In this document: one piece after another, positions 41,063 through 56,973 of the stretch
Position numbering within the stretch: position 1 is the stretch's first letter
Layout of the letters: each line of letters opens with the position of its first letter
Source: Pseudooceanicola marinus
GTDB lineage: Bacteria; Pseudomonadota; Alphaproteobacteria; Rhodobacterales; Rhodobacteraceae
Assembly: GCF_020177265.1 (NCBI RefSeq)
Contig: NZ_JAIVMC010000003.1
Span: 434,001 to 498,000 of the forward strand
DNA: 64,000 nucleotides
Direction: 5' to 3'
Made by a program: the position numbers and the translations under genes
Notes under the pieces: generated by a model
What the model was told of the DNA's origin: nothing
Seen by the model: the letters and a program-made list of their open reading frames with translations, nothing else
The model's database searches: none

Positions 41063-42580
41063 TCAGAAAAAGCCCAGCTTGTTGGGGTTGTAGGACATCA
41101 GGATGTTCTTGGTCTGCTGGTAGTGATCCAGCATCATCTTGTGGTTCTCGCGCCCGATGCCCGACTGCTTGTAGCCACCGAAGGCCGCATGGGCAGGGTA
41201 GGCGTGGTAGTTGTTCACCCAGACCCGGCCCGCCTGGATGGCGCGGCCAACCCGGTAGCAGCGGCTGGCGTCGCGGGTCCAGACACCGGCGCCAAGGCCG
41301 TACATCGTGTCATTGGCGATCGCCAGCGCCTCTGCCTCGTCCTTGAAGGTACAGACCGAGACGACGGGCCCGAAGATTTCCTCCTGGAAGACCCGCATCT
41401 TGTTGTGGCCCTTCAGGATCGTCGGCTCGATGTAGTAGCCGCCATCCAGACCGTCGACTTGCGCGGCCTTGCCGCCGGTCAACACCTCGGCGCCTTCCTC
41501 GACCCCGATGGTCAGGTAGGACAGGATCTTTTCCTGCTGCTCGCGGCTGGCCTGGGCGCCCACCATGGTGTCCATGTCGCGCGGGTCGCCGCGCACGATG
41601 GCCTCGACCCGGGCGATGGCACGCTTGATGAACTCCTCATAGATGTCTTCCTGGATCAAAGCGCGGGACGGGCAGGTGCAGACCTCACCCTGGTTGAAGG
41701 CAAAGAGGACGAAGCCCTCGACCGCCTTGTCGAGGAAGGCATCATCCTCGGCCATGACATCGCTGAAGAAGATGTTGGGGGACTTGCCGCCCAGCTCCAG
41801 CGTCACCGGGATCAGGTTCTCGGTTGCGGCCTGCATGATCTTGCGCCCCGTCTCGGTCGAGCCGGTGAAGGCGATCTTGGCGATCCGCGGGGAGCTGGCC
41901 AGGGCCGCGCCCACCTCGCCGCCGAAGCCGTTGACGATGTTCAGAACGCCCGCGGGCAGCAGATCCTGGATCAGGTCCATCAGCACCATGATCGCGGCGG
42001 GCGTCTGTTCGGCGGGCTTCAGCACGATGCAGTTGCCGGCGGCCAGGGCGGGCGCCAGTTTCCACGCCGCCATCAGGATCGAGAAGTTCCACGGGATGAT
42101 CTGGCCGACGACGCCCAGGGGCTCATGGTAGTGGTAGGCCACGGTATCCGCGTCGATCTCGGACATGTTGCCTTCCTGGGCGCGCAGCACACCGGCGAAA
42201 TAGCGGAAGTGGTCCACGGCCAGGGGGATGTCGGCCAGGGTCGTCTCGCGGATCGGCTTGCCGTTGTCCCAGGTCTCGGCCCGGGCCAGCAGGTCCAGGT
42301 TCTCCTCCAGGCGGTCGGCGATCTTCAGCAGGGTGTTGGCGCGTTCGGTGGCCGAGGTGCGGCCCCAGGCATCCTTCGCCAGATGGGCGGCGTCCAGCGC
42401 CAGGTCCACGTCGGCCGCGCCGGAGCGGGCCACCTCGCAGACCACCTCGCCGGTGATCGGCGTGACGTTGTCGAAATATGTGCCGCTGACGGGGGCGGTG
42501 AATCGCCCGCCGATGAAGTTGTCATAGCGGCTCTGGAAGGGCGAGGTGCGGCTCAGGTCGGGTTGGCTCATCTCGTTCAT
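41063..42580 (-). CDS. Aldehyde dehydrogenase (AldA/ExaC type)
   Basis: 505 residues, full length. NAD-binding region [21 protein letters not shown] and [11 protein letters not shown], catalytic Glu in LELGGKSPN, catalytic Cys in [12 protein letters not shown] (two Cys, as in acetaldehyde dehydrogenases of the AcoD/ExaC group), and [10 protein letters not shown]. It probably oxidises acetaldehyde or other short aldehydes to acids. The upstream divergent-style dyad and the GAF-Fis regulator gene 185 bp upstream on the same strand suggest specific induction. Confidence 0.94.
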
Positions 42581-42698
42581 GACAGGTCTCCTCCGTCTGT
42601 CGGAATTCCTCCGGCACCCTCCTCGGCGCCGGTGAAGGAGATCTGGCATTGTGGCGGCGGCGTTGTCAGCGGGGGCAGGGCGGCGGAGGGGGCAAAAC

Positions 42699-42765: not shown

Positions 42766-43716
42766 TCAGTCTGCGCCGGAGATGCCCAGCCGTTTCATCC
42801 GGCGGTAGAGCGTCGCGCGCCCGATGCCGAGCGCGCGGGCCGCGGCCGAGACATTGCCGTTGGCGCGCGCCAGGGCCCGGGTCAGTGCGGCCTTCTCGGC
42901 CCCCGACAGCCCCTCGGAGGTTTCCCCAAGAACGTCGCGCAGCGGCACCGGGCGCAGGGCGCCCTGGCGCGCCAGGCCGCAGCCGATCCGCGCGCTGCGC
43001 GTGGCGCCCACGACCAGACCATCGCGATCCACCGCCAGCAGGGCGGTGCCGGCGCGGTCATCGCCGACCAGAACGATCTGGCGGTCGCTGTGGATGTCAC
43101 GGAAGAGGTCGATCTCGATCTTGCTGGCAATGCCGCTGACCATGGCGCCGATCAGCTGGTTGAACCCGTCGCTTTCGGCGCGGGGCGAGGACACGTCCAG
43201 CGCCGCGATCAGCGTGCCTTCGTGGTCGAAGACCGGCGCGTCGATGCAGCTCATGGCGATATTGCGCGCCAGGTAGTGCTGGTCGCGATGGATGATCAGG
43301 GGGCGTTTCTCGGTCAGGCAGGTACCGATGCCGTTGGTGCCCTGGGCCTCCTCGCTCCAGTCGCCGCCCGCGACCAGGCCGGAGCGGATGAAGTCGGCCT
43401 CGTCCGCCGCCCGTTGCCGCGCCCGCAGGATCAATCCGCGCGCATCGGTCATGAAGACGCCGTGGCCGCTTTGTCCGATGGTGGAAAACAGCTCGTCCAG
43501 GCGTGGGCTGGCGACATGCAGCAGCCGGCCCAGCACTTCCTCCTGTTCGGCCAGGCGCGCGGTATCGCGGTCCTGCGGCGGGGCGGCGGCCGGGTCCAGG
43601 CGGTGGTGGGCGAAGGACCGTTGCCAGGACGCGGCAAGACGGGAGCGCGCGGCGGAAGCGTCACAGCTGACGGTCCGCATCACGCGGGTCACATGGTCGT
43701 GGTCACGGCCGGTCAT
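42766..43716 (-). CDS. AcoR-like GAF-Fis regulator lacking the AAA+ domain
   Basis: 316 residues. N-terminal [11 protein letters not shown] and HHRLDP motifs are as in AcoR/acetoin regulators. A GAF domain spans about residues 55-200 ([45 protein letters not shown]). A short linker leads straight to a Fis HTH ([34 protein letters not shown]). The ~240-residue sigma-54-interacting AAA+ domain of AcoR is absent. It likely senses an aldehyde or alcohol-derived signal and controls the downstream aldehyde dehydrogenase through the TGTCTCA dyad. Confidence 0.9.
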
Positions 43717-43858
43717 CGGGCGCCTCCTCCCTTCCTCCTGGGTGACCCGACCGTCGGCCGGGTGACCCGAGGTTAGAATATGACCGGGCCGATGCGGTCG
43801 AGGCAAGCCTCAGTTTGAGACAGCCGGGCAGGGCCGGGCGGGCCCGCTGGACAAGACG

Positions 43859-43909: not shown

Positions 43910-45082
43910 TCAGCGCAGGATGTTCAGGCTGTCGAAGTCGATGCTGTCGGTGGCGCCGGCCAGGTCCTCGATCGAGTCGTAGAGCAGTTCCAGCGCGTAA
44001 TGCGGATTGTGCGCGTAGATGCCCGGATCGGCGGTGACCAGCTTCCAGTTGTAGGCCGCTTTCAGCGAGCGCGGCGTCCAGGCGGCATAGTTGACACTGC
44101 TGCCGTCGACCTGGTCGGCCACCCCGTCGCCATTGGCGTCGGCGAAGAAGTAGGGGTAGTGCGGCTCAAAGACCAGCGCGGTGCCCGCGACCTCGCTGGT
44201 ATAGGTCACCAGCGTTTCCATCAGCAGCTGCGCATTGGCCTCGATGTCCGAATGGATGCCGACCGTCAGGTTGCCGGAGCCGTCATAGCTTTGCTTGCGG
44301 ATGCGGATCGCCTCCGAAGTTTCGGCATCGTGGCAGGTGGCGCAGGTCTCCACCTTCACCTCCAGGCTGTGCGGGTTGTGGCAGGACACGCAGGAAGCCA
44401 CCGGGCGGGCATGGAAGAAACGGCCCGAGTAGGTCTTGCCCGGGTAGTGATAGCCCGCGCCCCCGTAACCGCCCAGCCAGCTGGCGGCGGCGGTGGCGTA
44501 GTGCGGGTTCACGAAGCGCAGCTCTGCGTCGACGGTGTCATCGGGTTTCGAGGCGGTCGCATTTTCGACAGTCGCCCCGGCGGCGCGCCCCTGGTGACAG
44601 GTCATGCAGGCGGCTTCGACGCCGACGACGGGATGCACGACGCCCGACGGCAGGGTCAGTTCAGAGATCGAGGCGAGGCCGTCGTTGTGGCAGGTCTCGC
44701 AATCCACGACGCCACCGGCGGGAATGGGCGCTTCGGGCAGGCCAGGTTCGCTGCCATCCAGCCCGTGGAAGCTGCGGAAGCCCGCCCCGGCGTGACAGAC
44801 CGAACAGTTGGGCGGCACCGCGCCTTCGTCATCCCAATGCGTGAAGGCCTCGGCGGTGGCATCCGCATGGCCGCCCTTCAGCCAGGCGGTGATCGCGGCG
44901 GTGTTCTGTTCGCCCAGGGATTTCGGCTCGAACGGACCGGCGTCCGGCAACAGGAAGGGTGTGATCGCCTCCTCGCCGGAGGGGGCGGATGAGTCCTGTG
45001 CCTTTGCGCTCGGCGTTCCCGTCAGGAAACTGGCGAACAGCAGGGCGAGGACCGATGAAACGGTAATAATTTTCCCACGCAT
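43910..45082 (-). CDS. Exported pentaheme c-type cytochrome
   Basis: 390 residues. N-terminal MRGKIITVSSVLALLFASFLTG is a signal peptide or anchor ending near SAKAQ. Five CxxCH heme motifs in order: CSVCH, CETCH, CMTCH, CVSCH, CATCH, all in the first two thirds. The last ~120 residues lack cysteines and end with HNPHYALELLYDSIEDL, typical of multiheme proteins of the cytochrome c554/NapC-like assembly. It is periplasmic. Divergent from the Nqr operon with a shared 224-bp promoter region, which suggests co-regulation and electron exchange with it. It could alternatively serve an unrelated respiratory route. Confidence 0.9.
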   Translation of the reverse strand: MRGKIITVSSVLALLFASFLTGTPSAKAQDSSAPSGEEAITPFLLPDAGPFEPKSLGEQNTAAITAWLKGGHADATAEAFTHWDDEGAVPPNCSVCHAGAGFRSFHGLDGSEPGLPEAPIPAGGVVDCETCHNDGLASISELTLPSGVVHPVVGVEAACMTCHQGRAAGATVENATASKPDDTVDAELRFVNPHYATAAASWLGGYGGAGYHYPGKTYSGRFFHARPVASCVSCHNPHSLEVKVETCATCHDAETSEAIRIRKQSYDGSGNLTVGIHSDIEANAQLLMETLVTYTSEVAGTALVFEPHYPYFFADANGDGVADQVDGSSVNYAAWTPRSLKAAYNWKLVTADPGIYAHNPHYALELLYDSIEDLAGATDSIDFDSLNILR

Positions 45083-45306
45083 TGGTTTTTCCCGGCAGTT
45101 GGCTATCAATTGGGCTACGGGTCCGATGATACCTTGGGATAGCGTTCGAGCAATGACACGAACGTGAATGTGGCGAAAAAACTCTCATTCAAACATATGT
45201 TGCAAAAGCACTTTTTAATTATCGCGCGGAATTGTCAGGGTTTTGTGGACGTGGTGCTTAATTTGGCAGAAACCTGTTCCAAGGGTGAATGCAGGTAGGA
45301 GAGACA
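45083..45306. promoter_or_regulatory. Divergent promoter region, pentaheme cytochrome / nqr operon
   Basis: A 224-bp gap with AT-rich centre (about 45175-45230, ACATATGTTGCAAAAG and TTTTTAATTATC), unusual for this GC-rich segment and expected for back-to-back promoters. No clear FNR, ArcA-like or other named box was recognised. AGGAGAG before 45307 sets the nqrA start. Confidence 0.5.
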
Positions 45307-46584
45307 ATGCTGTCGCAGCTCATGCAGGCAGGGCTTAATCCGACGGTGCGTTCGGCGCCGCTGACAGGCGGCGAGCCGGTGGAGCATTGGACGGAAGAGG
45401 CTGCGGTCCTGCCGCAGCATCGCGAACATCTGCGTGTCGACATGGTCGTGCGGGAAGGCGAGGCCGTGGCCGGTGGTGCGCCCGTGGCTCGCCTGCGGGA
45501 CCACCCGGAGATCGCCCTGGTGGCGCCGATGCCCGGCCGTGTGGCGAAGGTGCACCTCGGCCCTGGGCGACAGCTGCATGAGATCGTGCTGTTCCGCGAT
45601 GCGGGCGGAGACATGCGCCGCCATGACACCCAGGCAGCCGGGGCGGGCGATGGCAGTGCGCTGCGGACCCTGCTGCAGGACAGCGGACTATGGCGACAGT
45701 TCCGCGCCCGGCCTTTCGGCCGGATGCCCGCCCCTGGGGCCGTCCCGGCAGCGATTCTGGTCATGGCCGCGGACAGCCGTCCCCTGGCGCCCAACCCGCT
45801 GGCGATGCTGGAAGGGCGCGGGGAGGACCTGATGCGCGGGCTCGCCGCGCTTGGTCACCTGACCGAGGGGCCGGTCTACCTGTGTCAGCGCCGCGGCCCC
45901 GCGCTGGCCGGGCCGGGCGCGGTCGAAGGGCGGCTACGCCTGCTGCGCAGCGGGCCGCGTCACCCGCAGGGCCTGGCGGGGCACCAGTTGCATCATCATC
46001 ACCCGGCGTCCGTCGAAGCCCCGGTCTGGGACATCCACGCCGAGGATGTGGCCGACCTCGGTACGCTGCTGGAGACCGGCCTGCGCCCCGCGCTGCGCAC
46101 CGTTTCGGTGACCGGCCCGGCCCTGAGCGAGGCGCGGCTGCTGCGTTGCCAGGACGGGGCGCATCTGGCCGGGCTGTGCCACGGGCTGACCGTGCCGGGG
46201 CCGCATGATCTGGTGTCGGGCTCGGCGCTGGACGGGCACAGGGCGGTCTGGCTGGCGCCGCGGGATCGGCAGCTGTCGGTGATGACCCATCACCATGGCG
46301 CGCCCCGGGGCCACTGGTTCCGCAACGCGCTCAGCCGGGCCGCGCGGCCCGTGCCGCTGATCCCCACGGCCGCGCTGGAACAGGCTCTTGGCGGGGCCCT
46401 GCCGGCCGTCGCGCTGCTGCGGGCCCTGTCGGCCGGCGATGACGAGACCTTGGCGAAGCTGGGCGGCCTGACCCTGCTGGAAGAGGACCTGGCCCTGGCC
46501 GACTACGTCACCGGGGCCGAGCCACGGCTGTCCGCGCTCCTGCGCGGGGCGCTTGATCGGATCGCGGCGGAGGAGGGGGCATGA
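45307..46584 (+). CDS. nqrA: Nqr complex subunit A (divergent)
   Basis: 425 residues, near the normal ~445. Recognisable NqrA segments include a barrel-sandwich stretch (VREGEAVAGGAPVARLRDHPEIALVAPMPGRVAKVHLGPG), RARPFGRMPAPGAVPAAILVMAADSRPLAPNP and HLTEGPVYLCQRRG. The usual N-terminal GLDLPI.G motif is replaced by MQAGLNPTVRSAPLTGGEPV, so this is a divergent member. NqrA is the cytoplasmic subunit near the quinone site in canonical Nqr. First gene of the operon; overlaps nqrB as ATGA. Confidence 0.88.
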   Translation: MLSQLMQAGLNPTVRSAPLTGGEPVEHWTEEAAVLPQHREHLRVDMVVREGEAVAGGAPVARLRDHPEIALVAPMPGRVAKVHLGPGRQLHEIVLFRDAGGDMRRHDTQAAGAGDGSALRTLLQDSGLWRQFRARPFGRMPAPGAVPAAILVMAADSRPLAPNPLAMLEGRGEDLMRGLAALGHLTEGPVYLCQRRGPALAGPGAVEGRLRLLRSGPRHPQGLAGHQLHHHHPASVEAPVWDIHAEDVADLGTLLETGLRPALRTVSVTGPALSEARLLRCQDGAHLAGLCHGLTVPGPHDLVSGSALDGHRAVWLAPRDRQLSVMTHHHGAPRGHWFRNALSRAARPVPLIPTAALEQALGGALPAVALLRALSAGDDETLAKLGGLTLLEEDLALADYVTGAEPRLSALLRGALDRIAAEEGA

Positions 46585-47402
46585 TGCGCGGCATCTGGGA
46601 TCGTGAAACCGTGGCCCTGCTGCTGCTGGCGGCGCTGATGCCGCTGGCGCTGGCCTGGCTGTGGTACGGTGGGATCGAGGCGGCGGGTCGGCTGGCGCTG
46701 ACCCTGCTGGTCTCGGGCCTCTGGCACCTGATCTTCATGCTGGCCCGGGCCCAGCCTCCCAGCTTTGCCGGCGCCCTGACGGCGCTGGCCGTGGCCATGC
46801 TGGCGCCCGAGGATCTGGGGATCTTCCGCCTGGTCATGGGCATCAGCTTCGGCACCGTGATGGGGGAGCTGGTCTTCGGCGGCTGGGGGCGCAATGTCGT
46901 CAATCCGGCGACGATCACCCTGGCCTTCCTTGGCTTCGGCTTCCCGGCGGCGCCCTGGCCTGACTTCGTGCTGCCGGTTGCCTGGGCGGCGATCCCGGCG
47001 GCGGGGCTGGGGATCCTGCTGGGCGTGATATCGGGGCGCATCATCGCGGGGGCGCTGCTGGCGGCGCTGTTGGCCTGGGCGATCCCGGGCGGGGCCTGGC
47101 CCGCGGGGCTGGAAAAGGTGCTGCCGGTGGCCTGGATCGGGCTGATCCTGCTGGTCTGCGACCCCGTCGCCAGCGCCGCCACGCGGCCCGGTCGCTGGGG
47201 CAACGGCCTGCTTTACGGCGCGCTGATCGTGCTGTTCGCCACCGGCTGGGACGGCGGGGCGCCGGTGCAGATCACCGTTTCCGCCGCCCTTCTGGCCTCT
47301 CTCGCCGCCCCCATCCTGGACGAAGCCGCCATCGCGCTGTGGCGCGCAAGACGCCATCGCGCGCTGGCGCGCAAGACGGAGGACACATCTTGGCTGACCT
47401 GA
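46581..47402 (+). CDS. nqrB: Nqr complex subunit B, shortened and without the FMN-threonine loop
   Basis: 273 residues against about 400-415 in canonical NqrB. Conserved parts are present: GISFGTVMGELVFGGWGRNVVNPATI (about 86-112), ISGRIIAGALLA (about 149), and LLVCDPVASAATRPGRWGNGLLYG. Between residues ~115 and ~149 only a short segment (PAAPWPDFVLPVAWAAIPAAG) replaces a much longer stretch that in Vibrio NqrB contains SGAT with the covalently flavinylated threonine. No SGAT, TGAT or DxxSGA motif occurs anywhere in the protein. The N-terminal cytoplasmic segment is also missing. The reading frame is intact and tightly coupled on both sides, so this is not a frameshift. Confidence 0.9.
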   Translation: MMRGIWDRETVALLLLAALMPLALAWLWYGGIEAAGRLALTLLVSGLWHLIFMLARAQPPSFAGALTALAVAMLAPEDLGIFRLVMGISFGTVMGELVFGGWGRNVVNPATITLAFLGFGFPAAPWPDFVLPVAWAAIPAAGLGILLGVISGRIIAGALLAALLAWAIPGGAWPAGLEKVLPVAWIGLILLVCDPVASAATRPGRWGNGLLYGALIVLFATGWDGGAPVQITVSAALLASLAAPILDEAAIALWRARRHRALARKTEDTSWLT

Positions 47403-48187
47403 ACCCCTTCTCGGCCTGGCGCCGTCTGCTGGCCCTGCCGAATGAAAGCCGGACCAAGACAGTGCTGGTGGCCTTCCTGGTCTCCGCCTGCTGCGCGGTG
47501 ATGGTCAGCGGCGCCACCGTCGTCCTGCGCCCGATCCAGGCGGCCAACCGCGCCGCCGAGGAACAGGCGCGGCTATCGGCGCTGGTGGCGGGCATCCCCG
47601 GCATGTCGACGCTGCTGGAACAATCGGGCGGCGCCCTGTCGACGGTGGTGATCGACCTGGACACCGGCCGCGCGGCGACCGAGGTGAGCCCGGCGACGCT
47701 GGAAACCACCCTGGCCGATGCCGGCAACTGGACGGTGCTGGACCCAGGCGCCGACATCGCGGGCCTCGTGCAGCGTCCCGATTACGCGCAGATCTACCTG
47801 CTGCGCAGCGAGGGCGAGGTGTCCCTGCTGCTGCTGCCCTTCAGCGGGCAGGGCTACAACGGGCGCATCGACGGCATCCTGGCCCTGAAGGGCGACATGC
47901 ACACCATCGCCGGGCTGACCATCACCGGCCAGTCCGAAACCCCCGGCCTCGGCGCCCGGATCGAGGAACCGGCCTGGCAGGCGTCCTTCAACGGGGTGGA
48001 GACCACGGATGACAGCGGCGAGATCCGCTTTGCCGTCGCCCGTGGCCCGGCCTCGACCGAGTATGAGGTCGACGGGATCACCGGCGCCACCCGCACCTCC
48101 TCGGCGATGACGCGCATCATCCGCTTCTGGCTGGGCGAGGAGGGCTATGGCCCGCTGATCGAGGCCGTCCGGCGCGGGGAGTTCTGA
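47390..48187 (+). CDS. nqrC: Nqr complex subunit C, FMN-binding
   Basis: 265 residues, TTG start at 47390 after ACGGAGGACAC, overlapping nqrB by 13 bp. One N-terminal membrane helix (VLVAFLVSACCAVMVSGATVVL), then a periplasmic FMN-binding domain with GYNGRIDGILALKGDMHTIAGLTITG and TPGLGARI. The flavinylation motif is DGITGATRTSSAM, fitting the ApbE target pattern D-x-x-(S/T)-G-A-T. It carries FMN on the periplasmic side and, in canonical Nqr, passes electrons to the NqrB FMN. Confidence 0.93.
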   Translation: MADLNPFSAWRRLLALPNESRTKTVLVAFLVSACCAVMVSGATVVLRPIQAANRAAEEQARLSALVAGIPGMSTLLEQSGGALSTVVIDLDTGRAATEVSPATLETTLADAGNWTVLDPGADIAGLVQRPDYAQIYLLRSEGEVSLLLLPFSGQGYNGRIDGILALKGDMHTIAGLTITGQSETPGLGARIEEPAWQASFNGVETTDDSGEIRFAVARGPASTEYEVDGITGATRTSSAMTRIIRFWLGEEGYGPLIEAVRRGEF

Positions 48188-48190
48188 GCC

Positions 48191-48853
48191 ATGACCGCGC
48201 CGTCCCCTCTCTGGTCCACCTTCACCGATCCGCTGGTGCGGCAGAACCCTGTGACCCTTCAGATCCTCGGCATCTGTTCGGCCCTGGCGGTCACCACCTC
48301 GATGCCCACGGCGCTGACCATGGCGGCCTCGCTGACCACGGTGCTGGTGCTGTCGGCGGGGATCATCAGCCTGATCCGGCGGCATATCCCCGACACCATC
48401 CGGCTGATCGTGCAGATCGTCATCGTCGCCTCGCTGGTGATCGTCATCGACCAGCTGTTGCAGGCCTATCTGTTCGAGATCAGCCAGAGCCTGTCGGTCT
48501 TCGTCAGCCTGATCACCACCAACTGCCTCGTGCTGGGCCGCACCGAGAGCTTCGCGCGGCTGAACCCGCCGGGCCGCTCGATGATCGACGCGCTCGGCAA
48601 CGGGCTGGGCTATTCGCTGATCCTGTGCCTTGTTGGCGCTCTGCGGGAACTGTTCGGCGCGGGCAGCCTGATGGGCCTGCAGGTGCTGCCGCTGGTTGAA
48701 CAGGGCGGCTGGTTCACGCCGCTGGCGCTGATGCTGCTGGCGCCCTCGGCCTTCTTCATCCTGGGCGGGCTGGTCTGGGCCATCCGCTCGATCTGGCCAG
48801 ACCAGGCGGAGGCGCCCGACACGGTGCCGCCCGAGGTGGAGGAGGGCGCGTGA
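48191..48853 (+). CDS. nqrD: Nqr complex subunit D
   Basis: 220 residues with six predicted membrane helices. Two half-channel cysteines are retained: ILGICSALAVTTS and LITTNCLVLGR, corresponding to the NqrD cysteines that with NqrE bind the intramembrane iron or [2Fe-2S] centre. RESFA-like TESFARLNPPGRSMIDALGNGLGY is typical. The acidic tail extends about 15 residues beyond Vibrio NqrD. Confidence 0.94.
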   Translation: MTAPSPLWSTFTDPLVRQNPVTLQILGICSALAVTTSMPTALTMAASLTTVLVLSAGIISLIRRHIPDTIRLIVQIVIVASLVIVIDQLLQAYLFEISQSLSVFVSLITTNCLVLGRTESFARLNPPGRSMIDALGNGLGYSLILCLVGALRELFGAGSLMGLQVLPLVEQGGWFTPLALMLLAPSAFFILGGLVWAIRSIWPDQAEAPDTVPPEVEEGA

Positions 48854-49464
48854 TGGCAGACCTCTGGTCCCTCTTCCTGTCGGCGGCCTTTGTCGAGAAC
48901 CTGCCGCTGACCCTGTTCCTCGGCCTTTGCACCTTCCTGGCGCTGTCGAAACGGCCCGAGACGGCCGTGGGCCTGGGTATCGCCATGATTGCGGTCATGG
49001 GCGTGACGGTGCCGCTGAACCAGGTGATCTACACCGCCGTGCTGGCCCCCGGCGCCTGGGCCTGGGCGGGCTACCCTGAAATGGACCTCTCCTACCTCAG
49101 CCTGGTGGCCTTCATCGGGGTCATCGCGGCCATCGTGCAGCTGCTGGAAATGCTGCTGGACCGCTTCTTGCCCAAGGTCCACGCGGCCTTCGGGGTCTTC
49201 CTGCCGCTTCTGACGGTGCAATGCGCCATCCTGGCGGGCAGCCTCTTCATGGTCGAACGCAACTATGACCTGGCCGAAAGCTTCGTCTTCGGGATCGGCG
49301 GCGGCACGGGCTTTGCCATCTCGGTCATCATGCTCTCGGCAATCCGAGCGCGGCTGGCCTATGCCGACCTGCCCGCGGGGCTGCGGGGTCTGGGCATCAC
49401 CTTCATCCTGGCCGGGCTGATGTCGCTCGGCTTCTCCTCCTTCGCACAGATGGCCGCGCAATGA
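48853..49464 (+). CDS. nqrE: Nqr complex subunit E
   Basis: 203 residues, six membrane helices. Cysteines in FLGLCTFLALSKR and LLTVQCAILAGS (usually TVNCAI) complete the intramembrane cluster site with NqrD. GGGTGFAISVIMLSAIRARL is a family signature. ATG 48853 overlaps the nqrD stop by one base (TGATG). Confidence 0.94.
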   Translation: MADLWSLFLSAAFVENLPLTLFLGLCTFLALSKRPETAVGLGIAMIAVMGVTVPLNQVIYTAVLAPGAWAWAGYPEMDLSYLSLVAFIGVIAAIVQLLEMLLDRFLPKVHAAFGVFLPLLTVQCAILAGSLFMVERNYDLAESFVFGIGGGTGFAISVIMLSAIRARLAYADLPAGLRGLGITFILAGLMSLGFSSFAQMAAQ

Positions 49465-50693
49465 CCGACGAGATCCTCCTCGCCTCCCTCATCGTTGTCC
49501 TGCTGGTGGTGGGGCTGACCCTGGGCCTGCTGCTGGCGCGGCGGCGACTGGTGCCGCAGGGGGGCATCACCATCACCGTGAATGGCACGAAGGAGATCGA
49601 GGCACACCGCAGCGACCGCCTGCTGGGGGTGCTGCATGGCGCCGGCATCGGCATTCCGGCGGGCTGTGGCGGGTCGGGCACCTGCGGGCTCTGCCGCGTG
49701 GTGGTCGAGGGGGAGGGCGCAGGCGAGGCGGGCGCGACCGAACGTGGCATCCTGTCGGCGGCGGAACGCAAGGCGGGCAAGCGGCTGGCCTGCCAGACGC
49801 AGCTGCGCGGCCCCTGTTCCGTCACCGTCCCGGAGGATTTCCTGTCGGGCGGCGGCGGCTTTGAATGCACCGTGGTTTCGAACCGCATGATGGCCCCGCT
49901 GATCCGCGAACTGGTGCTGGAGCTGCCCAAGGGGCACGACTTCAACTTCCGCGCCGGGGGCTTCATGCAGCTGAACGCGCCGCCCTACAGCCTGAACTTC
50001 GCCGAGATGCCGGTGGATGAGACCTTCCGCGCCGCCTGGCACCAGGCCCGCTGGGACAGCCTGACCTCGGAGATCGACGATCAGGTGACCCGCGCCTATT
50101 CCATCGCCTCGCGCCCGGAGGATACCGCAGCCGGCCGTGTCGTCTTCAACATCCGTCTGGCGGTGCCGCCTGCGGGCCGCGAGGAAGAGATCCCGCCGGG
50201 GCAGGTGTCGTCCTGGCTCTTCGCCCGCCAGCCGGGCGACGTTGTCGAGGTGTCGGGCCCGTTTGGCGAGATCCATGTGCAGGACACCACCTCGGACATG
50301 GTCTTCATCGGCGGCGGCGTCGGCATGGCACCGCTGCGCGCGATGATCCACGAACAGATCGGGGCCGGGACCACGCGCAAGATGCGCTATTTCTACGGTG
50401 CGCGGTCGGTGGCGGATCTGTTCTACGTCGAGGAATTCGACGCCATCGCCGACGCGCACCCGAACTTCGACTGGACACCGGCCCTGTCGGACCCCGCGCC
50501 GGGCGACCGCTGGACCGGGGCCACGGGATTCATCCACGAGACGGTGATGCGCGCCATGCAGGGCCACCCTGCGCCCGAGGACTGCGAATACTACCTCTGC
50601 GGCCCGCCGGTCATGATCTCGGCCGTGCTGGCCACGCTGGAACGGCTCGGGGTCGAGCCGGAGAACATCTACAAGGACGATTTCGGAGCCTGA
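49461..50693 (+). CDS. nqrF: Nqr complex subunit F, NADH-oxidising
   Basis: 410 residues. N-terminal helix (LLASLIVVLLVVGLTLGLLLA), a [2Fe-2S] ferredoxin domain with GCGGSGTCGLCRV and a later Cys in LACQTQ, an FAD domain with RAYSIASRPED, and an NAD domain with FIGGGVGMAPLRAMI and YYLCGPPVM. It ends YKDDFGA, as in canonical NqrF. All cofactor motifs are intact, so the complex should accept electrons from NADH. Confidence 0.96.
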   Translation: MTDEILLASLIVVLLVVGLTLGLLLARRRLVPQGGITITVNGTKEIEAHRSDRLLGVLHGAGIGIPAGCGGSGTCGLCRVVVEGEGAGEAGATERGILSAAERKAGKRLACQTQLRGPCSVTVPEDFLSGGGGFECTVVSNRMMAPLIRELVLELPKGHDFNFRAGGFMQLNAPPYSLNFAEMPVDETFRAAWHQARWDSLTSEIDDQVTRAYSIASRPEDTAAGRVVFNIRLAVPPAGREEEIPPGQVSSWLFARQPGDVVEVSGPFGEIHVQDTTSDMVFIGGGVGMAPLRAMIHEQIGAGTTRKMRYFYGARSVADLFYVEEFDAIADAHPNFDWTPALSDPAPGDRWTGATGFIHETVMRAMQGHPAPEDCEYYLCGPPVMISAVLATLERLGVEPENIYKDDFGA

Positions 50694-50696
50694 GCC

Positions 50697-51683
50697 ATGC
50701 AAAGCGACTTCTCGAAACGACCGACCCGCCGCGCCCTGCTGGGCGGGGCCGCCGCGACCCTGGCCCTGCCGGGTCTGTTGCGCGCCGGCACCCGCGCGGT
50801 GGAAACGCTGAGCGGCCCGGCCTTCGGCACCAGCTGGCAGGTCACCTTGCCCGCGGGGCGGGGGATAGAGACGCTGCGCGCCCCGATCATGGATCTGCTG
50901 GCCGGGATCGACAGGCAGATGTCGCCCTGGCGCGCCGACAGCGACATCAGCCGCTTCAACGCCGCCGGGCCGGGCACCTGTGCGCTGCCCGCCGAGACGC
51001 TGGCAGTGACCCGCGCAGCGCTGGCGCTGGCCGAGCGGAGCGGCGGGCATTTCGACCCCACGGTCGGCCCGCAGGTCGCCCGCTGGGGCTTTGGCCCCAT
51101 TGCGGGTGATGGCGCGGCTGACTGGCACGGGCTGACGGCGGACGACGGCGCCGTCATCAAGGCCCGGGCCGGTCTGACGCTGGATCTCTGTGGCATTGCC
51201 AAGGGCCTCGCGCTGGACCGGATGGTGGCGCTGGTTCGGGAAGTGGGCCACGATGATCTGCTGATCGACCTGGGCGGAGAACTGGCCGCGCGCGGACGGC
51301 ACCCCGAGGGGCGCGCCTGGCAGGTGGCGGTGGAGGATCCGCGCCCCGAGACCACCGGCCTTGCGGGCATCCTGTCGCTGACCGGTGCCGTTGCGACCTC
51401 CGGCCTGAAGACGCAGAGCTATACCTTGGACGGCGCCCGCTACGGCCATATCATCGACCCGGAGACCGGCGCGCCCGTGGCGTCCGGCCCGTTGTCGGTT
51501 TCGGTTCTGGGGGCCTCCGCGATGGAGGCCGACGGCTGGGCCACCGCACTTTTCGCTGCAGGCGCCGCGGGACCCGCTCTGGCCCGCCGCGCCGGGATCG
51601 ATGCGCTGTTTGTCAGCGCCGCGCCGGTCGGGCTGACGTCCGAGACCACCGGCACCTTCGCCACCCATCTGAAAGGGGCCTGA
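50697..51683 (+). CDS. apbE: FAD:protein FMN transferase
   Basis: 328 residues. A twin-arginine-like leader (TRRALLGGAAATLALPGLL) suggests export to the periplasm, where NqrC is flavinylated. ApbE motifs: GTSWQVTL, DRQMSPWRADSDISRFN, LDLCGIAKGLALD, LLIDLGGELAARG, and HIIDPETGAPVASG for Mg2+. Located inside the nqr operon; given the NqrB loss, NqrC is its only evident target here. Confidence 0.95.
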   Translation: MQSDFSKRPTRRALLGGAAATLALPGLLRAGTRAVETLSGPAFGTSWQVTLPAGRGIETLRAPIMDLLAGIDRQMSPWRADSDISRFNAAGPGTCALPAETLAVTRAALALAERSGGHFDPTVGPQVARWGFGPIAGDGAADWHGLTADDGAVIKARAGLTLDLCGIAKGLALDRMVALVREVGHDDLLIDLGGELAARGRHPEGRAWQVAVEDPRPETTGLAGILSLTGAVATSGLKTQSYTLDGARYGHIIDPETGAPVASGPLSVSVLGASAMEADGWATALFAAGAAGPALARRAGIDALFVSAAPVGLTSETTGTFATHLKGA

Positions 51684-51684
51684 G

Positions 51685-51855
51685 ATGGAACTTTTCCTCG
51701 TCCTCGCCATCTTCCTGCTGGCCGCCGGGGGCCTGGCCCTGGGCCTGGCCTTTGGGCGCGATCCCGTCCAGACCTCCTGCGGCGGCGCCGCGAAATGCGG
51801 CCGCGCCTGCGAGGTCTGTCCTAACCGGATCGCCGCGATGGAGGAGGAGGCATGA
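51685..51855 (+). CDS. nqrM: NqrM maturation factor
   Basis: 56 residues. One N-terminal membrane helix (LFLVLAIFLLAAGGLALGLAFG) is followed by four cysteines in SCGGAAKCGRACEVCP, the DUF539/NqrM signature. NqrM delivers iron to the NqrD/NqrE intramembrane site during assembly. Its presence argues that the intramembrane iron centre is functional. The ATG follows the apbE stop by 1 bp, and the TGA overlaps the next start as ATGA. Confidence 0.88.
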   Translation: MELFLVLAIFLLAAGGLALGLAFGRDPVQTSCGGAAKCGRACEVCPNRIAAMEEEA

Positions 51856-52247
51856 GCACCGAGGCCCGCGTCTCCGTCCTGATGCAGACCGACTGGGTGG
51901 AAGTGACGCCCGAAACGCCCATGCGCCGCGCCGCCGCCCTTCTGGTCGAGGGGCGGGCCGCGGCCGCTGCGGTGGTCGACGACGAGGGGCTGCTGGTCGG
52001 CATCCTCAGCCAGAAGGACTGTTTCCGGCCCGCGCTCTATGCCTCCTACTACCAGGAATGGAAGGGCAACGTGGCCGAGAACATGAGCCGGGGGGCCATC
52101 ACCTGCAACGCCGAGGATGACCTGATCTCGGTCGCTGAGGCCTTCACCAACTGCCCGCACCGGGTCTTCCCGGTGGTGGAGGAGGGGCGCGTGGTGGGCA
52201 TGCTGCGCCGCTCCGACGTGCTGGCGGCGCTGATGGACATGGGCTGA
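51852..52247 (+). CDS. CBS-pair protein of the nqr operon
   Basis: 131 residues, two CBS domains and little else: TDWVEVTPETPMRRAAALLVEGRAAAAAVVDDEGLLVGILSQKD, then ISVAEAFTNCPHRVFPVVEEGRVVGMLRRSDVL. CBS pairs bind adenine nucleotides. As the last gene of nqrABCDEF-apbE-nqrM, it may tune the complex to energy charge. This gene is not part of canonical nqr operons. Confidence 0.88.
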   Translation: MSTEARVSVLMQTDWVEVTPETPMRRAAALLVEGRAAAAAVVDDEGLLVGILSQKDCFRPALYASYYQEWKGNVAENMSRGAITCNAEDDLISVAEAFTNCPHRVFPVVEEGRVVGMLRRSDVLAALMDMG

Positions 52248-53827: not shown

Positions 53828-55213
53828 TCAGAACTGGAAGTAGATGAAGGGCGCCACGCCTTCTTGCGCCATGGCGAAACAGAAGATCAGCCCGGCGGCC
53901 AGTGCCAGGGCCTGCACCTCGGGCGCGACGCGCGCCAGGGCCTGGCCAGACCGGGTGAACCAGCTGAGCGGCAGGGCGTTCAGCGCCAGCCCGGCGGTGA
54001 TGAGCATCAGGGCGAAGCCATGCAGCGGCACAGCGTAGTCGCTGGCGGGGCGGGTCAGCGCGGCCAGCATCTGGCCCACCTGGTCCAGGTCATGGGCGCG
54101 GAAGGGCAGCCACAGCAGCGTGACCAGCGCGAAGACCACCACGATCCGCAGCGCCCGCGCGCCTGTGGCGCGGTGCTGCCCGGTCAGCCGCTCGACGGCC
54201 ACCAGCGCCCCGTGCGCCAGCCCCCAGAGGACGAAGGTCCAGGCGGCCCCGTGCCAGAGACCCGCCAGCCCCATGACCACCAGCAGCGTCACCGCCTGCC
54301 GTCCCTTGCCTCCCTTGTTGCCGCCCAGCGGGATGTAGAGGTAATCGCGGATCCAGGTGGACAGCGAGATATGCCAGCGCTGCCAGAACTCACGGAACGA
54401 CGCCGCGCGGTAGGGCTGGTTGAAGTTGGCGTTAAAGCGATAGCCCAGCAGAAGGGCCACGCCGATGGCGATGTCGGAATAGCCCGAGAAGTCGCAATAG
54501 ATCTGCACCGCATAGCCCAGCATGGCCGCCAGCGCCTGCGGCGCGGCCTGGGAGGCGGGATCGGTATAGACCGGGTCGACCAGCAGCACGGCGATGTAAT
54601 TCGCGATCACCAGCTTCTTCACCATCCCCGCCAGGATCAGCGCCACGGCCATCCCGCGCATGGCGGCGTCGGGCCGTTCGGGCCGGTCGAGCTGCGGCAG
54701 GAAGTCGGCGGCGCGCACGATGGGGCCCGCGACGAGCTGTGGAAAGAAGCTGACATAAAGGGCCACGTCGAAGGGGTTGCGGCGCTCGGCGCAATCACCG
54801 CGCGCGCAGTCGACGATATAGCTGATCCCCTGGAAGACGTAGAAGGAGATCCCCACGGGCAGCACCACCTGCGCCCAGCTGAAATCCCGCGACAGGCCCG
54901 CATCCCCCAGCAGGTTGGAAAAGGACAGCAGGAAGAAGTTGAAATACTTGAAGAACGCCAGGCACCCAAGCAGCCCCGCGATGCAGAGCGTGCGCAGCGC
55001 CGTGGCCTTCCGCCGTCCCGGCAACCCGCCCAGCCAGGCCAGGAGGATCACCCCAGTCATCAGCGCCAGGAACCGCAAATCCCAGGCGGCATAGAACCAG
55101 TAGGAGGCCGCCAGCAGCATGCCCTTGCGCCAACCGTTCCAGGCAAACAGCGCCAGGTTCAGCCCCAGAACAGCCGTGAAGAACAGCACGAAGTCGAGTG
55201 TCGGAAAGACCAT
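53828..55213 (-). CDS. MBOAT-family O-acyltransferase (AlgI-like)
   Basis: 461 residues, about 10-11 membrane helices. The canonical AlgI/DltB/PatA motifs are present: FREFWQRWHISLSTWIRDYLYIPLGGN and the catalytic His in GLWHGAAWTFVLWGLAHG. It transfers acetyl groups across the membrane to a periplasmic SGNH partner that acetylates a polysaccharide or peptidoglycan. Two SGNH genes directly upstream in the same operon fit this scheme. Confidence 0.94.
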   Translation of the reverse strand: MVFPTLDFVLFFTAVLGLNLALFAWNGWRKGMLLAASYWFYAAWDLRFLALMTGVILLAWLGGLPGRRKATALRTLCIAGLLGCLAFFKYFNFFLLSFSNLLGDAGLSRDFSWAQVVLPVGISFYVFQGISYIVDCARGDCAERRNPFDVALYVSFFPQLVAGPIVRAADFLPQLDRPERPDAAMRGMAVALILAGMVKKLVIANYIAVLLVDPVYTDPASQAAPQALAAMLGYAVQIYCDFSGYSDIAIGVALLLGYRFNANFNQPYRAASFREFWQRWHISLSTWIRDYLYIPLGGNKGGKGRQAVTLLVVMGLAGLWHGAAWTFVLWGLAHGALVAVERLTGQHRATGARALRIVVVFALVTLLWLPFRAHDLDQVGQMLAALTRPASDYAVPLHGFALMLITAGLALNALPLSWFTRSGQALARVAPEVQALALAAGLIFCFAMAQEGVAPFIYFQF

Positions 55214-55222
55214 TGCCGGGGC

Positions 55223-56056
55223 TTACTGCAAGGCGATGAAGGCCAGCTGCTCCGGGGCCGGTGCCAGCGACGGGAAGCGCCGCACCAGGTCGTCCAGCAC
55301 CAGGTCGGCGACCATTTGGTAACCGCGGATGGTGAAATGCGACCCGTCACCGGAACGGATGGTCAGCGTCTGCTCCCCCAGTTGCGTCGTCGGCACCCAG
55401 GTGAACCCCTCGCCGGAGGCATAGGGTTCCAGCGGGAAGTAGATCCCGCCGTTCTCCTGCGCGGCCTGGGCCAGCAGCGGGTTGATATGATCCAGATGGG
55501 CGTTGAGGTTGGTGTTCCGGTCGGGCGCCGGGCCAATCATGTAGAACAGGGTTCCGGCCTGTGCCGCTTCGGCCACGATGCCACTGGCGCGGGCCTTGTA
55601 GGCGGTGTCCCAGGCCTCGGTCTGGAAGGGCACGGTGCCCTCGGCGGTGCGGATCGACTGCATGTCGTTCGAGCCGAAATGCGCCACGGTGAAATCGGGC
55701 CGGGTGGCGGCCAGCATCTGGGAGAAGTTGCCGGGCCAGTCGTAGAAATCGCCACGGCTGAGCCCGGTGGAATTGCGCCCGCGATTGACGACCCGCAGGT
55801 GCAGCCCGCGCGCCTGGGCCCGCTGGATCAGCAGCATGCCGAAGCCGTCGGACAGGCTGTCGCCGATGACCAGAAGCGTCGCGGGGGCCTCCGCCGAGAA
55901 GCGGCGCGAGGGCTGGGCGACGGGTATGGCGCGGGCGCTGCCCTCGGGACGGGTGAGCAGCTGGCCCAGATCCTGGGCGGAGGTGCAGCCCGCCACCGGC
56001 AGCGTCGCCAGCAGCATCAGTCCGAAGGCGCGGCGGATCTTATTGAAGCGCTGCAT
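55223..56056 (-). CDS. SGNH-hydrolase-like lipoprotein
   Basis: 277 residues. Lipobox in LLATLPVAGCTS. GDSL block LVIGDSLSDGFG (Ser nucleophile), GSND in VAHFGSNDMQS, and the C-terminal catalytic Asp/His in DGSHFTIRGY. The family is the DUF459/AlgJ-AlgX-PatB type, which accepts acetyl from MBOAT proteins and transfers it to sugar. It overlaps the preceding SGNH gene by 17 bp and lies 9 bp before the MBOAT gene. Confidence 0.9.
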   Translation of the reverse strand: MQRFNKIRRAFGLMLLATLPVAGCTSAQDLGQLLTRPEGSARAIPVAQPSRRFSAEAPATLLVIGDSLSDGFGMLLIQRAQARGLHLRVVNRGRNSTGLSRGDFYDWPGNFSQMLAATRPDFTVAHFGSNDMQSIRTAEGTVPFQTEAWDTAYKARASGIVAEAAQAGTLFYMIGPAPDRNTNLNAHLDHINPLLAQAAQENGGIYFPLEPYASGEGFTWVPTTQLGEQTLTIRSGDGSHFTIRGYQMVADLVLDDLVRRFPSLAPAPEQLAFIALQ

Positions 56057-56864
56057 TGCCGAAGATCGCCTTGCGTTCACGGGTGGCCATGGCGTCCTTG
56101 ATCTCGGGCGCCAGGGCGGCGGCGATCAGCTCGTACCCCAACGGGGTGAAGTGGATCTTGTCGGGCGCGCGCAGCTGCCGGGTGCTGCCGTTGACCACGG
56201 CGTTCATGGCGAAATCCTCGGCGCCGAAACGCGACAGCTCGCGGATGTCGTGGAAGGGCAGGTTCAGCGCGGTCAGCGTCTGCGAGATCAGGGCATTGAC
56301 GTGTTGGTACTCGGGTTCGAACTTGCCTTCGCCCACCACCGGCAGGCCGACCCAGAGGATGCGGTCGGCGCGGTCCGACAGGGCGCCGGCGAGCTCGCCC
56401 ACGCGCTTGGCGTAGAGCGTGTCCCATTCGGGGGTGCCATAGGGCACGCGGCTGCGGTCATCGCGCAGGGGGCGCAGATCGTTGGCGCCGATCTGGACGA
56501 TGAAAACGTCTTGCGCATCAGTGCTTTGCGTGGCGTCGTTGAAGCGCTGGATCCACTCCTCGGGGGGCGTGTGGGTCAGGCCGTCGCTGACCTGGGTGAG
56601 GCGCAGCACCTCGACGCTGCCGCATTGGCCAAGGGCGCGCTGCACGGCGCCCCAGAGGCCGTCGGCCAGGCTGTCGCCCAGCACGCCCAGGCGCACGGTG
56701 GAGCGCGGACAGGACAGGCTGTCGAGGCCCATGGTGGTGACGATGGGCACCACGCCCTGGGCGCGGGCCGCGTCGGGCGCCAGGGGCAAGGCCAGCGCGG
56801 CGGCGGCCAGCGTGCCCAGGGCCGCGCGGCGCAGGCGGGTCATGCGGTTTCGGTTCGATGTCAT
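56040..56864 (-). CDS. Second exported SGNH-hydrolase-like protein
   Basis: 274 residues, signal peptide with basic start (MTRLRRAALG) ending DAARAQ. Catalytic motifs: LGVLGDSLADGLWG, QIGANDLRPL and DKIHFTPLGYELIA. It is related to, but only distantly similar to, the neighbouring lipoprotein. Having two SGNH proteins for one MBOAT suggests a relay (as AlgJ/AlgX) or one acetyltransferase and one esterase. Confidence 0.9.
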   Translation of the reverse strand: MTSNRNRMTRLRRAALGTLAAAALALPLAPDAARAQGVVPIVTTMGLDSLSCPRSTVRLGVLGDSLADGLWGAVQRALGQCGSVEVLRLTQVSDGLTHTPPEEWIQRFNDATQSTDAQDVFIVQIGANDLRPLRDDRSRVPYGTPEWDTLYAKRVGELAGALSDRADRILWVGLPVVGEGKFEPEYQHVNALISQTLTALNLPFHDIRELSRFGAEDFAMNAVVNGSTRQLRAPDKIHFTPLGYELIAAALAPEIKDAMATRERKAIFGNAALQ

Positions 56865-56973
56865 GCGTCTGTCCCCTGTTGGCCCGATCCCAAGCGGGCC
56901 GCTGTCTGTTTTGCTGATCCGGGCCTGTCGCGACCGCCGCCGGGGCGGGGCCGGGGGCCGGTGCTGTTGTGTC

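Follow-up and report, generated by a model that had tools for sequence, protein, structure and literature searches.

The 64,000-nucleotide stretch of Pseudooceanicola marinus DNA analysed here (contig NZ_JAIVMC010000003.1, positions 434,001 to 498,000; hereafter the window, whose coordinates are used throughout) carries an operon for a variant of Nqr, the NADH:quinone reductase, with a shortened NqrB. A gene for a periplasmic pentaheme c-type cytochrome lies next to it, and the two probably form a route for electrons from NADH into the periplasm. On the forward strand lie nqrA (45289..46584, with an inner ATG at 45307 possible), the short nqrB (46581..47402, 273 residues), nqrC (47339..48187 from the GTG start as listed, with a later start possible), nqrD (48191..48853), nqrE (48850..49464), nqrF (49461..50693) for the NADH/FAD/[2Fe-2S] subunit, apbE (50697..51683) for the flavin transferase expected to serve NqrC, a gene for a small Cys-rich, NqrM-like membrane protein of 56 residues (51685..51855), and a gene for a CBS-domain-pair protein (51852..52247), a conserved companion of the short-NqrB variant. 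From 45289 to 52247 these genes abut or overlap their neighbours. The cytochrome gene (43910..45082) is on the reverse strand, divergent to nqrA; its product has five CXXCH motifs and, by eye, a signal-peptide-like N terminus.

Six intact, overlapping nqr genes with apbE and nqrM had been recognised in the sequence-only reading. Pfam and NCBIfam assign NqrA to NqrF and ApbE (Pfam ApbE, 1.5e-66), and the NqrM-like protein, for which there is no Pfam match, is assigned by its position and cysteines only. Among the NCBIfam TIGR models, NqrD (268.4 against a cut-off of 244.85), NqrE (261.5 against 247.55) and NqrF (419.9 against 295 bits) pass, and NqrA (196.1 against 321.05), NqrB (65.9 against 349.9 bits) and NqrC (130 against 144) fail; NqrB is also far under a second NCBIfam nqrB cut-off (76.8 against 414 bits). 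NqrA matches the Pfam NQRA domains as well as the nqrA models, the input gene is nqrF, and no RnfB or RnfC model of Pfam or NCBIfam matched among the operon proteins. NqrB carries no Pfam domain beyond the NqrB type and no NAD-domain fusion, and the complex is one of six subunits. The cofactor motifs upstream of NqrB are all retained, as had been noted before: the FMN motif DGITGAT of NqrC (also assigned by Pfam), the four cluster cysteines C29 and C112 of NqrD and C26 and C124 of NqrE (counting from its ATG at 48853), and C69, C75, C78 and C111 of NqrF, together with its FAD and NADH domains in Pfam. Judged by its sequence, the Nqr of the window is canonical at the membrane core and the input end and divergent at the output end. 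A search for a second, full-length nqrB returned one NqrB/RnfD-family match only in the whole genome (28 contigs, 98.8% complete).

For comparison we used 73 short-NqrB loci including the window, 55 of a first group (clade 1) and 18 of a second (clade 2), and 21 canonical loci, the fetched stretches being between 5.6 and 20.8 kb long. The counts exclude L051, a contig of 3.7 kb, and five loci that were duplicates. An apbE match was found by script in 66 of the 73 short loci; the apbE of the other seven (L069, L071, whose stretch is cut off, L073, L084, L087, L104 and L106) may lie elsewhere in the genome. The NqrB alignment holds 69 short proteins (54 clade-1 and 15 clade-2, window included) and five canonical Rhodobacteraceae NqrBs, and leaves out L038, where nqrB runs off the contig, L044 and L082, whose frames are broken, and L045, which was not extracted.

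The short NqrB lacks the loop that carries the covalent FMN. With phmmer, residues 39-134 of the window protein align with residues 134-229 of Vibrio cholerae NqrB, and a second, weak block reaches residue 252, opposite V. cholerae residue 402. No separate segment of the window protein corresponds to the DGYSGAT loop of V. cholerae NqrB (T236), and in two of the three phmmer matches residues from 86 onward, already part of the first block, are set opposite this loop. In the alignment with the canonical proteins a gap of 44 columns falls between codons 128 and 129 of the short nqrB (46962..46967 in the window), leaving 42 residues in 69/69 short NqrBs against 86 in the five canonical ones. The deleted 44 residues held the [ST]GAT motif and a downstream GxxxGSxGETS stretch. 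No [ST]G[AS][ST] motif stands at the FMN site in any of the 69 short proteins, and one of them (L070) has a TGAT at residue 221. The loss of the FMN loop from a 273-residue NqrB, first read from the window alone, is thus a cut shared by every short form aligned. Two invariant tryptophans of the 40 clade-1 NqrBs aligned, W126 (46956-46958) and W135 (46983-46985), flank the absent loop.

The losses extend beyond the loop, since the short form is also without approximately the first 58 canonical residues and a loop after the first helix. The quinone pocket of NqrB is described as built from N-terminal amphipathic helices that are absent in RnfD (PMC12174285), and these helices are the part missing from the short NqrB; the quinone-site Gly140 is substituted in 53/54 clade-1 and 15/15 clade-2 proteins. 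A263, one of three reported backbone Na+ ligands (PMC12174285), falls inside the deleted stretch when numbered from the V. cholerae alignment. The gate residues F338 and F342 (gate from PMC12174285) are substituted in all 54 clade-1 proteins and retained in 14 of the 15 clade-2 proteins.

An NqrB scoring so far below both NCBIfam cut-offs might be a decayed gene or an assembly artefact. That explanation is refuted by the conservation of the cut, together with the open frames, the 52-77% identity of the NqrBs of 39 clade-1 relatives to that of the window, and a confident fold. The AlphaFold2 model of the short NqrB (a single chain, like the cytochrome model below) has a mean pLDDT of 93.6, and its best PDB matches are V. 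cholerae NqrB and RnfD, so it is a folded protein and not a remnant.

The pentaheme cytochrome follows the short NqrB closely. A homologue is present in 55/55 clade-1 and 14/18 clade-2 loci (69/73 in all) and in none of the 21 canonical loci. It is divergent to nqrA in 68 of the 69 loci that have both genes, at a spacing of 44-520 bp (median 115), the sole non-divergent case, L044, being a broken locus. Five CXXCH motifs were counted in 67 of the 69 extracted cytochromes, the exceptions being L090, whose extraction failed, and L044, whose extraction was broken. Five further histidines are invariant in the 65 aligned cytochromes, which were chosen for their length and five CXXCH motifs, and a sixth is found in 61 of them. 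Because five CXXCH motifs and five more invariant histidines are enough for five bis-His hemes, the protein would be a carrier rather than an enzyme. The clade-2 loci without it are L038, whose stretch ends inside nqrB, L032, L035 and L034. L032 (1-1510) has a divergent 113-residue tetraheme Cytochrom_c3_2 protein followed by a frame-broken FAD_binding_2 flavoprotein, possibly a hint at a terminal reductase, and in L035 (1367-2752) this divergent position is taken by an EB_dh-domain protein that has a single CXXCH.

The cytochrome is also found apart from Nqr. A cytochrome profile run on 295 genomes of the window's family gave 48 matches, 46 of them strong. The 46 genomes are all 18 with a clade-1 NqrB (G159 by a partial match), 14 of the 18 with a clade-2 NqrB, and 14 without a short-NqrB match; with a second copy in G047, apart from its Nqr-form locus, this makes 15 cytochrome loci without nqr. 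By tblastn, nqrA, nqrB, nqrC, nqrD and nqrE were not found in these 15 stretches, and nqrF-like matches were remote only. In 11 of the 15 the cytochrome gene is divergent to a gene for a protein of about 490-580 residues with Ferric_reduct, FAD_binding_8 and NAD_binding_1 domains, identified by Pfam in three cases and by tblastn (60-68% identity to one of these) in the other eight. The ferric-reductase/NOX-like family is known for outward electron transfer. That one cytochrome pairs with two unrelated devices leading from NAD(P)H to the periplasm is the strongest argument for the electron flow proposed here.

We propose, at a probability of roughly 70%, that this Nqr-type complex has been turned from an NADH:quinone reductase into an exporter of NADH electrons to the periplasm, with the cytochrome as the acceptor of NqrC and NqrB as a scaffold. 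NqrF would oxidise NADH through its FAD and [2Fe-2S] centres, the [2Fe-2S] cluster between NqrD and NqrE would take the electron across the membrane, and the FMN of NqrC would receive it on the periplasmic side. NqrC would then hand the electron to a soluble periplasmic multiheme cytochrome, mostly the pentaheme one, and not to an FMN on NqrB, and the cytochrome would deliver it to a further acceptor. NqrB would stay as membrane scaffold and dock for NqrA, without a quinone site or covalent FMN; in known Nqr, NqrA is a cytosolic, cofactor-free subunit. Transfer as far as the NqrC FMN can be expected with great confidence, and the outward direction is strongly favoured. The pentaheme cytochrome is the likely acceptor of NqrC, and a fully non-redox NqrB is somewhat favoured. 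The sequence-only reading had cut the chain after NqrC and called for an acceptor other than that of textbook Nqr. The different acceptor is very probable, given the absent quinone-site helices, the linked cytochrome and the exchange for a NOX-like protein; the strict cut is less secure, as the riboflavin ligands are mostly retained in clade 1.

These ligands bring in the most serious rival, direct transfer from the NqrC FMN to riboflavin in clade 1, by which NqrB would still be redox-active and would pass electrons on to quinone or another acceptor, as a slimmed-down quinone reductase. The riboflavin site of NqrB is formed by T162, G198, N200, N203, A205, F342 and D346 (PMC10643135), of which the window protein retains every one except F342, a backbone contact; among clade-1 proteins N200 is kept in 53/54, N203 in 44/54 and D346 in 52/54. 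An extracytosolic FMN that directly samples a non-covalent flavin site has, moreover, been proposed for two-subunit Nqr/Rnf-like complexes (PMC11334425). We consider this rival distinctly unlikely, for the N-terminal quinone-pocket helices are gone and Gly140 is substituted almost throughout. Clade 2 has mostly lost N200 (retained in 3/15) and N203 (5/15) yet retains the remaining complex and, in most of its loci, the cytochrome, and complex I, also encoded in the window's genome (NuoH match), would be available for quinone reduction.

The flow could also run the other way, from a periplasmic donor through the cytochrome, NqrC, NqrD/E and NqrF to NAD+, driven by an ion gradient. The sequence does not set the direction, and Rnf runs both ways (PMC12174285). 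Against this stand the other partner of the cytochrome, a NOX-like protein with FAD- and NAD-binding domains from a family of outward transfer, and the lack of a conserved donor dehydrogenase among the neighbours seen. In addition, an FNR-type dyad, TTGA-N6-TCAA, is found between the divergent genes of relatives, exactly in 7 of 67 regions (0.16 expected) and with at most one mismatch in 21 of 67 (3.2 expected), which suggests use under low oxygen; a control with a spacing of 5 gave nine regions with one mismatch and none exact, and the enrichment is taken as a hint only. Reversed flow is, in our judgement, very unlikely.

Whether the complex pumps ions separates export as proposed from an uncoupled NADH oxidase module, which would export to the cytochrome without pumping and be interchangeable with the NOX-like protein. 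Several features speak for such a module. The proposed Na+ site and gate of NqrB are damaged (A263 deleted and F338/F342 substituted in clade 1, though these two are mostly retained in clade 2), and a protein with no known pumping substitutes in 11 loci. The Asn next to C124 of NqrE, moreover, which is present in 16/16 clade-2 and 20/20 canonical proteins, is replaced in clade 1 by Gln (43 of 54 proteins) or His (9) and retained in only 2. In the window this residue, 123 (49219-49221), is Gln, a change that could alter ion binding. On the other side, R71 and E119 of NqrD and E99 of NqrE are retained in 53-54 of 54 clade-1 and in all aligned clade-2 proteins. Residues of this type in NqrD/E have been tied to gating in Nqr (PMC10643135) and Rnf (PMC11889175), the correspondence of the numbering being our own. 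Mutations of RnfE R67 and E115, here taken as the equivalents of NqrD R71 and E119, impair growth of Acetobacterium woodii on H2 and CO2, although one of three E115 changes appears milder (PMC11889175).

A homologue of a Na+/H+ antiporter (Na_H_Exchanger) was found in 20 of 72 short loci (the window was not searched), 0/15 cytochrome loci without nqr and 0/21 canonical loci. The Fisher p-values are 0.018 against the 15 and 0.005 against the 21, and both are flattering, for the gene was picked post hoc and the stretches differ in length. The exchanger gene (PF00999 on one representative; for example L065:5590-6747) adjoins the cytochrome gene or lies toward the far end of the operon. The sequence-only reading had allowed for a changed coupling ion; antiporter genes near the short Nqr fit Na+ better than a new ion. 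Six subunits would also be a high price for a non-coupled role. With the gating residues retained, and antiporter genes beside the Nqr form and none beside the NOX-like form, pumping through NqrD/E is on balance probable, and the uncoupled module is unlikely. The fullest version of the proposal is an energy-conserving NADH:periplasmic-cytochrome oxidoreductase with NqrB as a non-redox scaffold, the pump in NqrD/E alone, and quinone-free export to a pentaheme cytochrome that is elsewhere served by the NOX-like protein. This version is tentative, at somewhat less than an even chance.

Several observations weigh against electron export to the cytochrome. The equivalents of G198, N200, N203, A205 and D346 in most clade-1 NqrBs, that of the window included, are odd for a redox-silent NqrB. 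L034 has a short NqrB and no frame with at least two CXXCH motifs in its 19.9 kb. Four of the 15 cytochrome loci without nqr are also without the NOX-like partner. In one of these, L151 (3863-6233), the neighbours of the pentaheme cytochrome are a Cytochrome_cB protein with nine CXXCH motifs and a cytochrome b of the b561 type, and in L142, L143 and L154 no electron conduit was seen. The FNR-type box enriched in relatives is absent between the two genes in the window. The model of the cytochrome is moderate (pLDDT 73) and without a significant fold match; comparison with the PDB was uninformative (best phmmer E 0.061, no Foldseek match under 0.001), and no NCBIfam family matched at E 0.001. 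Shared regulation alone, without direct contact, can also explain the gene neighbourhood.

The terminal acceptor adds to these points, as no terminal reductase family recurs as a conserved neighbour of the short-NqrB loci. Co-occurrence was compared between 40 of the 46 genomes with a strong cytochrome match (six were omitted, some of them less complete or broken) and 40 hand-picked genomes of the family without it. NosZ was found in 11 genomes with and 16 without the cytochrome (p 0.34), NapA over its cut-off in 6 and 12 (p 0.18), CCP/MauG in 36 and 36, and MtrB/PioB in none and 2, both weak. In this comparison none of NosZ, NapA, MtrB and CCP is associated with the cytochrome. Cytochrome_cB (PF11783) had no match in the window's own genome and none in the controls either, which is no evidence of its absence.

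Whether the short form is a clade, as had been asked of it, was addressed with a tree of NqrD, NqrE and NqrF made by a quick method from 63 rows, all alphaproteobacterial (27 clade-1 after thinning, 16 clade-2 and 20 canonical). The branch separating short from canonical alphaproteobacterial Nqr has an SH-aLRT of 100, as has clade 1, and clade 2 does not form one side of a branch. The short forms thus stand apart from canonical Nqr with clade 1 supported, and clade 2 is not a monophyletic split; their single origin is not proven by a tree that covers alphaproteobacteria only. Two genomes, G099 and G125, carry both short and canonical Nqr, which speaks for different jobs of the two. Carriers in a pattern scan of contigs include Pseudooceanicola, Martelella, Nitratireductor, Paracoccus, Jannaschia, Roseivivax, Mesorhizobium, Shinella and a metagenome-assembled Devosia genome, and recurrence across so many genera makes the short NqrB more than a chance event. 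The clade-1 NqrB profile gave 14 matches in 385 genomes of the class. Two of these are short forms, one in the genome of the window and one in G294, which belongs to the same family, and the remainder, with frames of 337 to 484 residues, were taken as canonical or RnfD-like mostly from frame length. In 398 genomes of the phylum the cytochrome profile gave 11 matches, seven strong and all in the window's family, and four weak elsewhere (E 7e-4 to 2e-6). These class and phylum samples miss some carriers, since the pattern scan found genera that we take to belong to Rhizobiales. The Nqr-variant loci L044, L082 and L098 contain broken frames, perhaps a sign of decay or of poor sequencing.

By the NqrB features tested, the complex of the window is not a Na+-NQR, yet up to NqrC its sequence is Nqr-like. 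It shares with the Na+-NQR of, for example, V. cholerae the six subunits in the same order with ApbE, curated cut-offs passed by NqrD, NqrE and NqrF, and the cofactor motifs of NqrC, NqrD/E and NqrF. It differs in an NqrB that lacks the covalent-FMN loop, the helices of the quinone site and a part of the Na+ site proposed there, in NqrA, NqrB and NqrC scores under the curated cut-offs, and in the divergent multiheme cytochrome and CBS genes. Loss of the flavinylation site in an NqrB-like subunit and one-way electron export have already been described for two-subunit Nqr/Rnf-like complexes (PMC11334425, PMC8238504). These resemble the present system in that site loss and in the proposed path from NAD(P)H to the periplasm through an NqrC-like FMN protein. 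They consist, however, of that protein and an NqrB-NAD-domain fusion, without NqrD, NqrE, NqrF or NqrA, whereas here there are six subunits, with NqrD/E usable for the membrane step. In Methanosarcina acetivorans an archaeal, ferredoxin-fed Rnf is accompanied by a membrane cytochrome with a different number of hemes. That system (Rnf/MmcA) has in common with ours the genetic linkage of a complex of the Rnf/Nqr type to a multiheme cytochrome thought to accept its electrons (PMC6703419). In Desulfovibrionaceae the gene for a CbcC-like ten-heme cytochrome likewise lies beside the rnf operon, and many members have lost the input gene rnfB (PMC11434368). The complex there is Rnf and not Nqr, the cytochrome is predicted to be cytoplasmic, and the excerpt available does not mention loss of the RnfD FMN site (PMC11434368). 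The ferric-reductase/NOX-like oxidoreductases, which substitute for Nqr beside the same pentaheme cytochrome, are single proteins whose Pfam family implies b-type hemes. They are not known to pump ions. Neither a short NqrB within an Nqr of six subunits nor a cluster of nqr with a pentaheme cytochrome was found in the open-licence literature, represented mostly by titles and the beginnings of abstracts.

The site of ion pumping in Nqr and Rnf is disputed between NqrB (PMC10643135) and RnfA/E (PMC11889175). Here evolution has stripped NqrB of its FMN loop, its quinone site and one of the proposed Na+ ligands, and the gating residues of NqrD/E are retained. If this complex pumps, the pump is independent of FMN chemistry in NqrB, whereas a lack of pumping would strengthen the NqrB model. 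The proposal, if true, would provide a natural Nqr with the redox function of NqrB removed, revealing where the pump lies, and a quinone-free, possibly energy-conserving route for NADH electrons into the periplasm across many alphaproteobacterial genera. For annotation, a full nqrABCDEF operon is not necessarily an NADH:quinone reductase.

Among the neighbouring genes, a homologue of the CBS-domain protein was found by tblastn in 68/72 short loci (the window not counted), 1/21 canonical loci and 0/15 cytochrome loci without nqr, and it is possibly a nucleotide-sensing regulator of the complex. Beyond the cytochrome gene, a regulator with GAF and Fis-type HTH domains (42766-43806) adjoins an aldehyde dehydrogenase gene (41063-42649); among the loci searched, this regulator had a match in L072 only. 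Finally, downstream of the operon (53828-56996), two adjacent DUF459/GDSL-type genes lie beside a gene that is, by eye, MBOAT-acyltransferase-like (53828-55213), perhaps together a polysaccharide acetylation set.

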